DNA of 64,000 nucleotides, from positions 1-64,000 of IMG/VR virus record IMGVR_UViG_3300033997_000092; one strand, 5' to 3'. The notes beneath the pieces were generated by a model that had not been told where the DNA came from, ran no database searches, and saw only the letters and a list, made by a program, of their open reading frames with translations. The stretch is from a virus. The translations under genes were made by a program, and so were the position numbers. Position 1 is the first letter of the stretch, and every line of letters starts with the position of its first letter. Below are positions 32,435 to 39,046 of the stretch, piece by piece.

Positions 32435-32458
32435 AAAAGGCACCGGTTAGGGTGCCTT
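32430..32458. terminator. Terminator between converging transcription blocks
   Basis: AAGGCACC (32437-32444) pairs with GGTGCCTT (32451-32458) around GGTTAG. On the - strand the hairpin is followed by TTTTTCATTT, a good Rho-independent terminator for the late block. On the + strand the T run is short (TTCA), so it is weaker in that direction. The stop codon of the - strand gene (TAA, 32447-32449) lies in the hairpin loop. Confidence 0.75.
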
Positions 32459-32779
32459 CACAAATACAATTCCTATCTTTTTACTTGGTCTAGCTGTAGA
32501 TATAAGCGTTACTTTGTCCTTGTCTACGTGGACAGCAAACTTCTCCATATCCTCATTAAACTTCTGCTTTACAATAGGACCAAGCAATTCAACTACTTTC
32601 TTGTAGATACGTAATTCACGTATATCCAGAGACTCTAGTTGTTGCTTGGCACTTTTAGGAACCTTAGCTCCTCGCCTAATATCGTCTGCCACTAAAACAC
32701 TTTGTCCAAAGAAGCGTTTTGATACTTCCCAGTACAACTGGAATAAACGCAGATGTCTTGCCTTCAGATAAATCTTCAT
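32447..32779 (-). CDS. Basic hypothetical protein, 110 residues
   Basis: Last gene of the - strand block. AGGAAG lies 6 bases before its ATG, and it overlaps the previous gene by ATGA. The product is basic and mostly helical (FQLYWEVSKRFFG; RELRIYKKVVELLGPIVKQKF) with a beta-like end. The opening MKIYLKARHL resembles the openings of the ADP-ribosyltransferase (MKIQLSL) and of the 42708 protein (MKIKVKLKRRF), all in the late accessory region. This may be coincidence or a shared signal. Confidence 0.5.
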   Translation of the reverse strand: MKIYLKARHLRLFQLYWEVSKRFFGQSVLVADDIRRGAKVPKSAKQQLESLDIRELRIYKKVVELLGPIVKQKFNEDMEKFAVHVDKDKVTLISTARPSKKIGIVFVKAP

Positions 32780-33112: not shown

Positions 33113-33952
33113 CTACTTGATTTTCACAATCTTGAAGATGTGCTTAGGCAAAAGTTGAATCTTATCAACAATAGATTCCTCTTCTACCAAAGTACCAGGC
33201 TCATATGAGTAAGAGTCCCCTCCAGGCAGCGCACCAAGTTCAGCCAACTTAATCAAATCGGAGTTCTTTTGCACGAACGTATGGATATCAAGCATTACCT
33301 TTTGGTCGGTCAGTTGGAATATAATTCCATAACTTGAGCCATCTATACGATCAAGGCTAGTCCCAGCTCGCCCAGTGGCATATATACGGGCTTTCTTCGG
33401 ATTAAGAGTCCAGCTCGTTGGATTTGTCAACGTGAGTCCGTTACGTTTAATCTCCTTGAGTTGATCCGCAGAGACCCGCATACCACGATACAATACAGGA
33501 ACTTTATCGGCATAAGGCTTGAGTAAATTGCCGTACCGTAGAATCTTCTGCAACGCTTCTTGGTTGTTTGGAGTTGTTGTCCAGCTCATTATATCAACGA
33601 GAAGACGCGCACGTACTTTGATAGATTTATCGCTAAGTAGTGGTTTGATTGCCGTTAACTCTTTGGTTATGTTTACAAACTTTCTGGGTGTAAAAGGCAG
33701 ATTAGCTTTCTTCCAACTACCCAAAACATTAGCGTTGTGGTTAAACACACCATCAGGCATAACACGCAACATAACGTAAGGCAGCTTCTCTACCGAAATA
33801 TGGTAAAAGTGTTTCGATCCTAAATTACGCTTTGACACGGAAGGCTTGAAACCGGCAGCTTTAATCGCATCAGTAATTAAACTCAACGCCGTAAGCATGT
33901 CTTGGTCTGACAGTCCTTTTTTAGGTTCATCTAACGATAGTTGAATTTTCAT
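33113..33952 (-). CDS. ADP-ribosyltransferase-like protein (R-S-E type)
   Basis: The C-terminal half of this 279-residue protein has the three landmarks of arginine-type mono-ADP-ribosyltransferases in order. VLYRGM carries the NAD-binding Arg (about residue 154), NPTSWTLNPKKARIYA carries the S-T-S-like strand (about 178-182), and LVEEESIVD carries the E-x-E catalytic pair (about 255-258). The spacing and the closing strands (KIQLLPKHIFKIVKI) fit the fold. T4-like phages inject or express such enzymes (Alt, ModA, ModB) to modify host RNA polymerase and other proteins. The N-terminal half is unrecognised. Its late position suggests it may be packaged in the virion and injected. Confidence 0.7.
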   Translation of the reverse strand: MKIQLSLDEPKKGLSDQDMLTALSLITDAIKAAGFKPSVSKRNLGSKHFYHISVEKLPYVMLRVMPDGVFNHNANVLGSWKKANLPFTPRKFVNITKELTAIKPLLSDKSIKVRARLLVDIMSWTTTPNNQEALQKILRYGNLLKPYADKVPVLYRGMRVSADQLKEIKRNGLTLTNPTSWTLNPKKARIYATGRAGTSLDRIDGSSYGIIFQLTDQKVMLDIHTFVQKNSDLIKLAELGALPGGDSYSYEPGTLVEEESIVDKIQLLPKHIFKIVKIK

Positions 33953-33955
33953 ACA

Positions 33956-35605
33956 CTACTCCGTATCTTTAGAAGCTTTATCTATGGCTGTCTGGATAGC
34001 ATTGTTAGGGCGCACACCCAGCTCACGGAAAAACTCTTTCAACAGGCCCGGATCGATATAGTTTTGGATTGCTGTTGTAGCAGTCACTTTATCACCGTTC
34101 ATATGTCCCAGCTTCTCACCTACCTTCTTCAATGCTTCCAATACCCATTTGTTTACAGCAGCATCGGTTGCATTGCGCCCTTTACCAAATGGGTGCTTGG
34201 CAAGGATTTCCTTAGTAAGGATTGTACCACGTGCATGGCGGAAGTTGTGGGCAGTGACTCCATCAGGAGCACCAATACGCTTCAGGTAGTCGTTGACTTT
34301 TGAACCAGTAACACGGCTTTGACGAGGACCATACGTCATTAAAAAGTCGCCGCTATTTTTCCCATCAGCTAGTTGTCGGAGCAAACCACGCAACAGACCA
34401 GTTATGTGCGTATTGGAAGGTATAGTGTGTTTTTGTGCAATACCTTTCTTGCCAATATACTTCAATGTGAAGCTATTTGCCGCCTTATCCAAGAACTCTT
34501 TCACTTTCAGGCTACTAATACCTGTAGCGCCAGTTGCACTACCTATACGGCCTGACGTTATATAGATGGTTTCTATGATAACAGCGCATACTGTGTCCAG
34601 TGAGTTTATATCACCAGACAGATCACGGCGCCAGCGTTTTTGTAGTTTCGGAAGGCTATCAATCAGTTCTTTAACAGTGTCGAATTTGCCCACTGTCGCA
34701 GACTTCTTATAGTTGATAGTGTAGATGCGTTGGGGCTGACCATTACCAAACAAAGGATAATGGAGGAAGACATAAGTGTCGTCTTTAACTGGGTCATATT
34801 TCGTATTCAACTCTATTCGGCCTGTAACAGCACCGTTGATTTTAACTTTAGCAGAAGTGTACAATGCGCCTGCTTCATCCAGATACCCGTCAAACATAGG
34901 CAGCTTATGTTTTATGTTCAACTTAGCCATGTGTCTGTGGACGTCTTTCAAATGGACAAGCTTTGCGCCTGAACCACGCACTAACCGCAATATTTCGGAT
35001 TTGACTACAGCACCTATATCACGATTAAGTTTCAGGAACTGTTTGTATACTTCGGCATTTTTAGCACGTAAGGCTTCTTTCTGTTCGACAGTAACGCTGT
35101 CAGAATTCACACCAAAATGCTTCTTAGAAAAGACCTGCAAGTCTTTAATTAGGGCACTCTGGTCATTTGTTTCAGTGTGATTGAACATACCACTCAGTGT
35201 AGTGTCTCCAAGCAATGACACGTTTTTGGTCATTTGTTTCTTGGCAGTTTCACTGTCCCGAAGCACGATAGATACAAAGTTATTGATAAGGCCGAGTTGA
35301 GCTTTACTCAAATCAGTTTCTTTTTCAAGTAAAGCACGTTTGGCTTTCAGTGCCTCAGCCAGATCAATGATGTCTTCTGTATCTTCACCTTTCAATGTAT
35401 CAGCAAGTACACGGGCCAAAATAGGCTTCCGTAACTTGAACCGCTCCATGAATTCGTCAGTTTGTTTGTGCCAAGTAACGGCATCTTTCATTGCTTGTTT
35501 GTCCATCTGCCTTTCAAACACATGGACAGCTATAAACAAAGTGATTAGCTTTAAGAAGCTGTGGGCTGTAGTAGAAGATACAGCCGATTGTGATAAAAGA
35601 GTCAT
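33956..35605 (-). CDS. Type IB DNA topoisomerase-like protein
   Basis: This 549-residue protein has a C-terminal catalytic domain in which the five active-site landmarks of topoisomerase IB occur in order. They are TSGRIGSATG (Arg about 349), FTLKYIGKKG (Lys about 382, matching the poxvirus KFVGKD hairpin), HNFRHARGT (Arg about 453), KLGHMNGDK (His about 499) and IQNYIDP (Tyr about 515). The spacing is near that of poxvirus topoisomerase (R130, K167, R223, H265, Y274). The same fold is used by tyrosine recombinases, but KYIGKKG favours a topoisomerase. The N-terminal ~330 residues include an extended helical region and a beta domain probably equal to the DNA-clamping cap. It is ATGA-coupled to the HDOD gene. 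Confidence 0.75.
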   Translation of the reverse strand: MTLLSQSAVSSTTAHSFLKLITLFIAVHVFERQMDKQAMKDAVTWHKQTDEFMERFKLRKPILARVLADTLKGEDTEDIIDLAEALKAKRALLEKETDLSKAQLGLINNFVSIVLRDSETAKKQMTKNVSLLGDTTLSGMFNHTETNDQSALIKDLQVFSKKHFGVNSDSVTVEQKEALRAKNAEVYKQFLKLNRDIGAVVKSEILRLVRGSGAKLVHLKDVHRHMAKLNIKHKLPMFDGYLDEAGALYTSAKVKINGAVTGRIELNTKYDPVKDDTYVFLHYPLFGNGQPQRIYTINYKKSATVGKFDTVKELIDSLPKLQKRWRRDLSGDINSLDTVCAVIIETIYITSGRIGSATGATGISSLKVKEFLDKAANSFTLKYIGKKGIAQKHTIPSNTHITGLLRGLLRQLADGKNSGDFLMTYGPRQSRVTGSKVNDYLKRIGAPDGVTAHNFRHARGTILTKEILAKHPFGKGRNATDAAVNKWVLEALKKVGEKLGHMNGDKVTATTAIQNYIDPGLLKEFFRELGVRPNNAIQTAIDKASKDTE

Positions 35606-36393
35606 TCAAAAATCTCCTTCATAGAATCCGCGAATATTTTTATTTCTGGCGAATCCAATTTTAATCCTTCTTCCAGTAAAAAGTTGCTATAGATGTCAGG
35701 TAGCCCTTGTATAGCTGCTTTACTTGCAGCAACAAATGCCGCAGCAGTTACAGTTCCATTGACATCGTATTCTACGGCTTTCACTGCTTCCTCTAAGAAG
35801 ACAGTATCCATATCCCAAGATTTCAACACTGCCCTTGTAAGTGTCTTTACAAGGTTCGGATTGATCATGCTCAAATCTAAGTCATCAATACCGTTAGCAT
35901 CAGCTTCAGCAATAATAGGCAAATAACCTATGTTGCTTATCATGCCATGTAACATCAGATCATCCGAGCTACATGCGTTGGGAAAGCGTGAATGGTAATG
36001 CAGTGAAAGTGCCATACAGGCAACATCACACGATTCTTTGTATAGGTTACGTATCAATGTTTTATTCTTGCCGTGACGACCAACAAAGACTTGTTCCAAT
36101 GCAATAGCACTGACAATGTTTTTAATCCGACCAATGCCAATACGGATAACGGCTGCCTTCAGGTCTGTAATACGAACAGGAGAAGATAGAAGGGCACTAT
36201 TCGATATTTTCAAGATGCGTAATGACATCGACGGGTCTTGAATCAGTATATTTGCTATCTGGTGTGCTGTAGCCAGTTCATTGTCGAATGCCCGTAGCAC
36301 TTTAATAGCAATCTCAGGAAGCGTAGGCAACACTAAATAGCCTGTGGATAGTTTACTTCGCACAGTAGATGCAAGCATACTTAGTTTAGACAT
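35602..36393 (-). CDS. HDOD-domain protein
   Basis: ATG 36393 is preferred because GGAG lies 6 bases upstream; an ATG 12 bases earlier overlaps that site. The 263-residue product has the HDOD pattern almost throughout: LPTLPEIAIKVLRAFDNE, then IANILIQDPSMSLRILKISNSALL, then ITDLKAAVIRIGIGRIKNIVSAIAL, and a distal helical part. HDOD domains are HD-related but usually lack the metal-binding His/Asp pairs, and act in bacterial signalling, including cyclic-di-GMP networks. I know of few phage examples. It is translationally coupled to the topoisomerase IB-like gene, suggesting joint action or a virion-associated pair. Confidence 0.75.
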   Translation of the reverse strand: MSKLSMLASTVRSKLSTGYLVLPTLPEIAIKVLRAFDNELATAHQIANILIQDPSMSLRILKISNSALLSSPVRITDLKAAVIRIGIGRIKNIVSAIALEQVFVGRHGKNKTLIRNLYKESCDVACMALSLHYHSRFPNACSSDDLMLHGMISNIGYLPIIAEADANGIDDLDLSMINPNLVKTLTRAVLKSWDMDTVFLEEAVKAVEYDVNGTVTAAAFVAASKAAIQGLPDIYSNFLLEEGLKLDSPEIKIFADSMKEIFE

Positions 36394-36409
36394 ATGAAAC
36401 TCCATACAA

Positions 36410-36440
36410 GATAAAGAAAAGGGAGCACTTTGGCTCCCTT
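36410..36440 (-). terminator. Rho-independent terminator
   Basis: On the - strand AAGGGAGC-CAAAGT-GCTCCCTT (stem 36419-36440) is followed by TTCTTTATC. It closes the large 864-residue gene. No promoter is evident between it and the HDOD gene, so the HDOD-topoisomerase-ADP-ribosyltransferase module may rely on read-through or on a promoter I cannot recognise. Confidence 0.75.
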
Positions 36441-36451
36441 CAAAGATACAC

Positions 36452-39046
36452 TTAAATTATCTTGCGTCCGCCGCCATAGATCCAAAGATCAGAAACAACT
36501 TCTTTATCTTTGTTACCACCACGAACTTGACGCACTGTTAAAGTACCGTCATGGATATTGTAATCGACTACTTCAACAGTCAACCACACTTTACCCTTTT
36601 TGATACTGTAGACAGGTGCATTCATAATAAGCGCATCGCTGGTCAGTGCCTCTGTCAGAGCATTAGCTAATTTGGCTTGGCGATCAATCAGAGTACCAAG
36701 TTTAACAGCGTCAGGAGAACCTGGAGAGGCACCCTGTGCTTTAGCTGTGGCATCTTTGATTTGCTGTGTCAAGCGATTCAGTTCTTCAACTGAGGCTTTA
36801 ACATCGCCAATCTTATCCATGTTCTGTACCATAGTGTGAATCAGACGACTACGTTCAATAGCCTTAGGCTCACGTTCTGGTAATATCAGACCAAGAATAA
36901 CCAATGTATATTCTTTACCTTCACTAATACGCTCTGTTACTTTACCGCGGAAGAAGTTACCATATGCACGGCGAATACGGTCGATTGTATTCTTAGCTTC
37001 TTGTACGAAAAGTGGGCTGTTGTTAGGAGCTGCCAGCACAATACGTGGAGGATTGTTGATAACAACATGCTCAGCACCAGCAGGCAACAATTTACTATCT
37101 TTGATATAGTAGGGCTTAAACTCAGCAGAGAAGAAACCTTCGTTGATTGCTTTAGCTAATTCCAACAACACAGATGTTTCGTTACCTGTATAGATTGGTT
37201 GCTTCAGCTTGTACCCAGTAGCAGGCTGCTTAGGACGAACAGTGAATTTCTCCATTGCTTGCGTAAGCATTACTGACTTGGCCTGGTTCTTGTTGGCAAT
37301 ACTATCACCAACAGCTTTAGCCAGAACTGGATATTGTTGCTTCTGGGAATTAACTACTAATGAGTCGTTGCCTTTCAGCACGAATGTTTTGTACATTGGA
37401 ACAGCAGTTGATTTTTTACGTACCAGCTCTGCTTTAACCAATACATCAAGTTCTTTCTGCGTTGTAGCCAAAAGTACACTGTATTCATCGACGAATGCTG
37501 ATGTCTGAACAAGTCCAACATGGACAGGAGAAGTTTTACCGAAGATTTGAAGCTTCTTAACTTCTTTTGCTTTCTGTCGTAAATCTTTATTGGAATCTTT
37601 TACAGTACCGAAACGCTTGGTTTCAACAGCCTCGCGTAGCTCCTGTTGTTTAGGAGACTCAGGTACCTTACGTTTTGTTTCTGCCTTAACTGCAATAGAC
37701 AGTTCTTTAGCAGGTGATGTTACCTTGATGCCTGCAGGTACTTTGCCTTTGTAAGGAACACAAGACTTCAGTAGCAGGTCAAGTTCACGTTCTGTCAGCT
37801 TGAATTCTACCTTTGGTTCTTGTAAGTCAATTACATACATTACGTTGCGTATGCCACGGCGGTAACCAAACACTTCATTGGCTTCTAAGCTCATTTCATA
37901 TTTGGCATGGTGATTACGCAAATGCTTTGCACGACCGTTAGCTGGCTTGTAACGTACTACAGTGTATTCTTTATCAGCAGCAGACTGAGACACTATGACG
38001 TTGTGTTGGCGATGTTCACCGGTACGTGGACCGCCACGATTGAAATTGGCAGCAGGTTTGCGTGTTACCAAATGCTGCTTATGCTCACCGCTACGAACTC
38101 CGTACGGATAACCTGACACGTTTGCAAAGTGCGATGTCTTAGTTTGGGTAGACTCTGACTCAGGAACAGGAGAAGGCTTATCACCTTCATTTGAAGCAGG
38201 TACAGTCGCTTCTAAACAAAGTTCATGTTCAACGCCTTCAGCAACTACGTCATTACATTTGTTGTCTGATATTGTACCAAACCGAGTAGATAAATCCTTT
38301 ATCTCAGTTGTGATACGAGGCGTATTGCCATATATCTCAGATACTGGAACATTCACAGGACCATCGGTACCACAATGTTTTGCAATGACAGCATCTACAA
38401 CGTGTTTGATTTTCTCAATTTCCATAGCGTTACACAACAGGAACATTGCTTTCTTCAAACGCATTGTATCACGCATAGATACCATGCTGTTCATACGGCT
38501 GTATTCTTCTGCATCCGATTCGGTCAAAGCAGACATAAAGCCTTCGAAGCCCCAGCACAGCCACAGACCCAATTTGTAACTGAAACCAAAAGAACATACT
38601 GTGTGGATAGGCTGTCCTGTTTCACGGTCGTGTACTACGCGTGGAGCGCGTACATCTAAATCATGGAGAATCTGAGCAACAGGGTAGCGTCCAATCAACT
38701 GACCAAACGAGTTGCAGAAAATCAATTCTTCTGCAGGCAAGCCTTGATCTACTACACAAGATGATACACCAACTCGCCAGTTAAAATCTGGACCGCACAC
38801 TTTAGATGCTAACTCAGTTCCGGGTAAACTATCACACTCTGGCTCAGATGGCTTAACTATGATAGCGGCTGTTGACTCAAGTTCATTTGCCTGTAGCCGC
38901 TGTGTTTTGCCGAATAACGGCATAGGTTTACCATTACCGAAACTGATAGTGCCGTTCCCATAATCAGCACTGATAGATATATGCAGATCGTCTTGGGCTA
39001 AGTGTAACCAAACTCTATCAGTCTGGGGAATCATAGATTTGTCCAT
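36452..39046 (-). CDS. Large probable virion protein, 864 residues
   Basis: GAGGG precedes ATG 39046. I do not recognise the protein as a whole. Residues 1-250 form a mixed domain with several cysteines. Residues about 330-385 contain two related histidine-rich units, GEHKQHLV and GEHRQHNV. At about 410-435 the pattern VEFKLTERELDLLLKSCVPYKGKV closely matches IQFKFEPKVLKRLLDASKPYKGKV in the tail-region protein at 54240-54929. The C-terminal 200 residues include a coiled-coil-like helix (VEELNRLTQQIKDATAKAQ) and a beta-rich end. Size, location and shared domain point to a late virion protein, perhaps injected or capsid-internal. Confidence 0.5.
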   Translation of the reverse strand: MDKSMIPQTDRVWLHLAQDDLHISISADYGNGTISFGNGKPMPLFGKTQRLQANELESTAAIIVKPSEPECDSLPGTELASKVCGPDFNWRVGVSSCVVDQGLPAEELIFCNSFGQLIGRYPVAQILHDLDVRAPRVVHDRETGQPIHTVCSFGFSYKLGLWLCWGFEGFMSALTESDAEEYSRMNSMVSMRDTMRLKKAMFLLCNAMEIEKIKHVVDAVIAKHCGTDGPVNVPVSEIYGNTPRITTEIKDLSTRFGTISDNKCNDVVAEGVEHELCLEATVPASNEGDKPSPVPESESTQTKTSHFANVSGYPYGVRSGEHKQHLVTRKPAANFNRGGPRTGEHRQHNVIVSQSAADKEYTVVRYKPANGRAKHLRNHHAKYEMSLEANEVFGYRRGIRNVMYVIDLQEPKVEFKLTERELDLLLKSCVPYKGKVPAGIKVTSPAKELSIAVKAETKRKVPESPKQQELREAVETKRFGTVKDSNKDLRQKAKEVKKLQIFGKTSPVHVGLVQTSAFVDEYSVLLATTQKELDVLVKAELVRKKSTAVPMYKTFVLKGNDSLVVNSQKQQYPVLAKAVGDSIANKNQAKSVMLTQAMEKFTVRPKQPATGYKLKQPIYTGNETSVLLELAKAINEGFFSAEFKPYYIKDSKLLPAGAEHVVINNPPRIVLAAPNNSPLFVQEAKNTIDRIRRAYGNFFRGKVTERISEGKEYTLVILGLILPEREPKAIERSRLIHTMVQNMDKIGDVKASVEELNRLTQQIKDATAKAQGASPGSPDAVKLGTLIDRQAKLANALTEALTSDALIMNAPVYSIKKGKVWLTVEVVDYNIHDGTLTVRQVRGGNKDKEVVSDLWIYGGGRKII

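Follow-up and report, generated by a model that had tools for sequence, protein, structure and literature searches.

The DNA analysed here (the window: 64,000 nucleotides of a 261-kb viral genome) encodes a stand-alone HDOD protein that is real, rare and selectively kept; the family is already known, and the gene's setting is unusual. Bacteria widely use HDOD proteins as regulators, by a molecular mechanism that is not yet established. Tentatively, we interpret the viral protein as a captured, non-enzymatic HDOD regulator of host origin, encoded beside a topoisomerase IB (topo IB) gene, that would bind a host partner or ligand in c-di-GMP or motility signalling.

An HDOD protein that has lost the HD motif

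The longest open reading frame (35602–36405, minus strand) encodes 267 amino acids (aa) and opens at an in-frame ATG (36405) four codons before another ATG (36393). We prefer the latter, which the earlier note had also chosen, because a GGAG lies six bases 5′ of it and because it agrees with the start in relatives. The protein matches the HDOD profile PF08668 with E = 3e-25 and 89.2 bits (curated cut-off, 22.9 bits), and phmmer matches it in the PDB to 3i7a, a Shewanella HDOD protein (E = 2e-29). An AlphaFold2 model built on an input alignment of 23 sequences (pTM 0.82) agrees with these matches: the predicted fold is all-helical and HD-related, like that of solved HDOD proteins, and Foldseek aligns it with 3i7a over nearly the full length (TM 0.83/0.78, E = 4e-11). 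The HDOD identity, first proposed from the sequence together with structure prediction as a check, is thus borne out. So is the proposal that the domain fills almost the whole protein, although the Pfam match covers residues 26–166 of the 267-aa form (profile positions 1–137 of 196); the relatives' proteins align up to profile position 188–192. The second structural match is SadB of Pseudomonas aeruginosa (9qzk, TMq 0.64). A fold search of BFVD with the model returned no viral protein at E ≤ 0.001, PADLOC, NCBIfam and PHROGs gave nothing useful for this protein, and Pfam finds a single HDOD in the 261-kb genome.

The solved protein 3i7a, from Shewanella amazonensis, belongs to the Alteromonadales stand-alone HDOD subfamily, has about 280 aa and shares with the window protein the LPTLPE, R-x-G and EQ-x-F motifs. 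Arg84, Glu100 and Gln101, numbered on the 263-aa form, are invariant residues. It differs in sequence (29% identity), in carrying HN where the phage-borne protein has SN, and in not being a phage protein. This position is informative across the family. In general gammaproteobacterial relatives it holds H in 34 of 34 sequences, followed in most by D or N; in the Alteromonadales group N follows Y, F or H; and phage members of the subfamily have SN (as in the window), SR, CR, HL or HR. Because the HD metal motif is eroded, HD-type catalysis by the phage HDOD proteins appears very unlikely from sequence, in which case the protein should act by binding. HD-GYP and HD-alarmone enzymes have been described in jumbo phages (PMC7824862), and the HD-GYP phosphodiesterases among them resemble the window protein in being phage-borne members of the HD superfamily, with a proposed counter-nucleotide role. 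Unlike those proposed enzymes, the window protein matches HDOD rather than HD-GYP and has S-N in place of the conserved HD metal-binding residues, a loss on which we reject an HD-GYP or HD phosphohydrolase reading.

Table 1 Features around the HDOD gene in the window
Feature	Position	Strand	Evidence or remarks
279-aa gene directly downstream of topo IB	33113..33952	minus	Motifs resembling those of ADP-ribosyltransferases, seen by eye only
Phage-type topoisomerase IB, 549 aa	33956..35605	minus	PF01028 E = 3e-16; phrog_23460 E = 1.5e-122; alignment
HDOD protein, 263 aa, HD motif lost	35602..36393	minus	PF08668; 3i7a; AlphaFold2/Foldseek; GGAG Shine–Dalgarno
Terminator-like hairpin between upstream gene and HDOD	36418..36441	minus	Loci L096 and L098 of relatives also have a hairpin here, of different sequence
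864-aa gene, weak KMPT-N (KTSC) match	36452..39046	minus	Directly upstream of HDOD; homologue in NCTB

A conserved neighbour of topoisomerase IB

The adjoining topo IB keeps Arg353, Lys386, His453/Arg456, His501 and Tyr516, all invariant in five phage relatives in the alignment. It is of the phage-specific type that PMC7824862 names in Motura, NCTB, RSL1, Lu11 and PaBG, and its best phage relatives are those of PaBG, NCTB, Lu11 and HRDY3, a relationship by which the 261-kb genome is assigned to the PaBG/NCTB/Lu11 group of jumbo phages.

With the topo alignment as query, a scan of viral contigs yielded 25 loci, one per record. Of these records, all searched with Pfam, four encode HDOD: a 24-kb contig with HDOD and topo proteins identical to those of the window, and records G002, G003 and G004, whose topo proteins are exactly the three closest to that of the window (44–45% identity). 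The linkage that the earlier note had seen in one sequence is therefore kept in three other virus records. In the window and in these three, HDOD lies directly upstream of topo and a protein of 864–935 aa with a KMPT-N match is encoded directly upstream of HDOD, and the order upstream gene, hairpin, HDOD, topo is retained throughout. Because G002 and G003 are near-identical, this conservation represents three lineages at most. Between those two phages the HDOD gene carries 13 synonymous and 5 non-synonymous differences (pN/pS 0.108) and is thus under purifying selection, looser than that on topo or the upstream gene. HDOD identity among the phages (23–43%) is lower than that of topo, and so their HDOD targets may differ. 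By Pfam, HDOD is absent from nine further records of 195–314 kb that carry this topo, and none was found in PaBG, Lu11 or HRDY3, which were searched directly. PaBG gp85, encoded upstream of topo in that phage, was considered as a hidden HDOD and ruled out (hhalign probability 1.6%). Near topo in the relatives are two small proteins (L096:12870-13364 and L098:15673-16188) that are 45% identical to each other, with a YRG/FRG...WVT pattern and no Pfam match.

Translational coupling of the pair, also proposed earlier, holds in part. In the window the start of topo does overlap the HDOD stop by 4 nucleotides (ATGA), but HDOD ends 8 nucleotides before topo in G002 and G003 and 2 nucleotides before it in G004, and the topo gene has its own AAGGAG; coupling is thus plausible but, on these sequences, not conserved. 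The placement among virion genes likewise needs qualification: major capsid protein, sheath and baseplate genes do lie about 9–24 kb upstream on the same strand, but the adjoining genes are not recognised as virion genes, and a terminator-like hairpin separates HDOD from the gene upstream. The immediate neighbours of HDOD are topo and genes without assigned function, with an MmcB-like gene 5 kb away. Because the corresponding hairpins in L096 and L098 match a terminator more weakly or on the opposite strand, the stem upstream of HDOD might instead act in mRNA processing or regulation. A second terminator-like hairpin (32436–32459) lies where plus- and minus-strand gene blocks of the window converge. 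Sigma-70-type promoter matches were no commoner than in shuffled sequence, and the 64-kb window contains no tRNA that might point to the host. In the protein encoded downstream of topo, YRGM, TSWT and EEES motifs follow one another as they do in R-S-E ADP-ribosyltransferases, a lead only; the protein has no Pfam, NCBIfam or PDB match.

Origin and rarity of phage HDOD proteins

In a 60-row tree, the HDOD proteins of the window, G002, G004, NCTB and locus L133 fall inside the Alteromonadales stand-alone HDOD subfamily, a set of 17 rows with support of 100/99; its branches, however, are long, and long branches may group falsely. The window protein groups with those of G002 and G004 (support 95/82). 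Its best identity among 369 sampled genomes of the class is 35%; the capture is therefore either not a recent event or from a source outside the sample.

The NCTB protein (BN7874_164) is likewise a phage-borne member of this subfamily and is 31% identical to that of the window. Unlike the window gene, it lies elsewhere in its genome, about 55 kb from topo and on the other strand, in a plus-strand nucleotide-metabolism cluster that includes genes for thymidylate synthase and DHFR. Its grouping with Alteromonadales proteins hints that the host of NCTB, which has been called a Trichodesmium phage (PMC7412058), may be an associated gammaproteobacterium.

Locus L133, on the 195-kb contig G397, holds at L133:6795-8825 tandem HDOD-type genes of 391 and 274 aa, in which a 391-aa HDOD-like protein (PF08668 E = 9e-11) is encoded just upstream of the member of the subfamily; the pair adjoins a divergent DnaB-like helicase gene. 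The PHROG major head protein of this contig is of another jumbo-phage type, which we take to be phiKZ-like. The HDOD proteins of Pseudomonas phage YMC12/01/R24 and of cyanophages Dfl-JY45 and MaAM05 fall in other HDOD branches, and an unverified record, Y10, which was left out of the tree, also gives an HDOD match. The gene of MaAM05, a Microcystis phage, is annotated as ribonuclease Y and looks misannotated (L004:5947-6831, equal to MW495066.1 66392-67276).

Scans that require a short shared motif found HDOD in few of 50,697 phage records and in a handful of 2.9 million viral contigs, returning the same few records, and the gene is therefore rare in viruses. This agrees with the earlier impression that phage examples are few, as does the literature: full-text searches, with subscription papers mostly outside their scope, gave no paper on a phage HDOD, although the supplement of PMC7824862 may contain these proteins under a different name.

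Possible roles

The nearest indications of function come from bacterial HDOD proteins. Cousins of the window gene in Shewanella lie directly upstream of a GGDEF–EAL gene in six of six loci, which links them to c-di-GMP; the window gene, unlike them, adjoins topo IB. SadB of Pseudomonas, which has the HDOD fold and is described as non-catalytic, binds c-di-GMP (PMC6543031). It differs from the window protein in being chromosomal, in its sequence (14% identity) and in an extra N-terminal YbaK-like domain, so that its c-di-GMP binding may reside outside HDOD. The P. syringae DC3000 protein PSPTO_4229 is a stand-alone HDOD of similar kind (273 aa), chromosomal and likened here by description rather than by sequence; its deletion reduces swimming and its overexpression almost abolishes it (PMC11813219). 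Interference with host second-messenger signalling, as suggested earlier, would be consistent with these three cases. No GGDEF or PilZ domain was found in the phages, and any such signal would therefore come from the host.

In the reading that we prefer, a stand-alone HDOD gene would have been captured from an Alteromonadales-type gammaproteobacterium and retained beside topo IB, as its constant neighbour, in a small PaBG-like clade of jumbo phages. Presumably expressed with the topo gene in the infected cell, the protein would act as a binding module and not as an enzyme, a decoy that takes up what the host's own HDOD regulator binds, either its partner protein or its cyclic-dinucleotide ligand. 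Flagellar motility, surface state or other traits linked to c-di-GMP would thereby be switched off or redirected. The kept placement beside topo suggests a working tool for handling host signalling. If this is true, phages reach c-di-GMP or motility control by an undescribed route, and a minimal, non-enzymatic HDOD kept by phages offers a small system for finding the HDOD target. We are more doubtful of a broader version, in which at least two unrelated jumbo-phage lineages (PaBG-like and phiKZ-like) captured members of the same Alteromonadales HDOD subfamily, which as catalytically dead decoys or sponges would override cyclic-dinucleotide or motility signalling in the host; if correct, it would define a class of phage counter-signalling protein not described so far.

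That topo is always the neighbour would also suit a function inside the phage's own biology, and through this linkage HDOD may have a part in phage DNA handling. HDOD might regulate or scaffold the phage's own topo IB or DNA processing, with no target in host signalling: throughout the subclade it immediately precedes topo, and the hairpin sets the pair apart from the upstream gene. We nevertheless think this unlikely, as the NCTB gene is distant from topo, most topo-bearing relatives are without HDOD, and the HDOD of the phiKZ-like phage adjoins a helicase gene instead. Somewhat less likely still is a cyclic-nucleotide sponge directed against defence systems that signal through nucleotides, for example CBASS or type III CRISPR. 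An HD-type fold without catalytic residues would suit a sponge, jumbo phages have been proposed to carry HD-superfamily counter-nucleotide proteins (PMC7824862), and viral nucleotide sponges are known (PMC11722364). Against this, the protein matches neither PADLOC nor a described sponge, the old HD-site residues vary among phages, and none of the papers cited here shows a stand-alone HDOD binding a ligand.

That the protein is packaged in the virion and enters the cell with the DNA, as its position on the same strand in the distal part of the block with head, sheath and baseplate genes might suggest, is unsupported and seems improbable to us given immediate neighbours that are not recognised as virion genes, the terminator-like hairpin upstream and the nucleotide-metabolism setting in NCTB. 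We give marginally less weight to a passenger gene without a selected role, which would explain the patchy presence within the phage group; the gene is under purifying selection and has stayed beside topo despite divergence to 28% identity.
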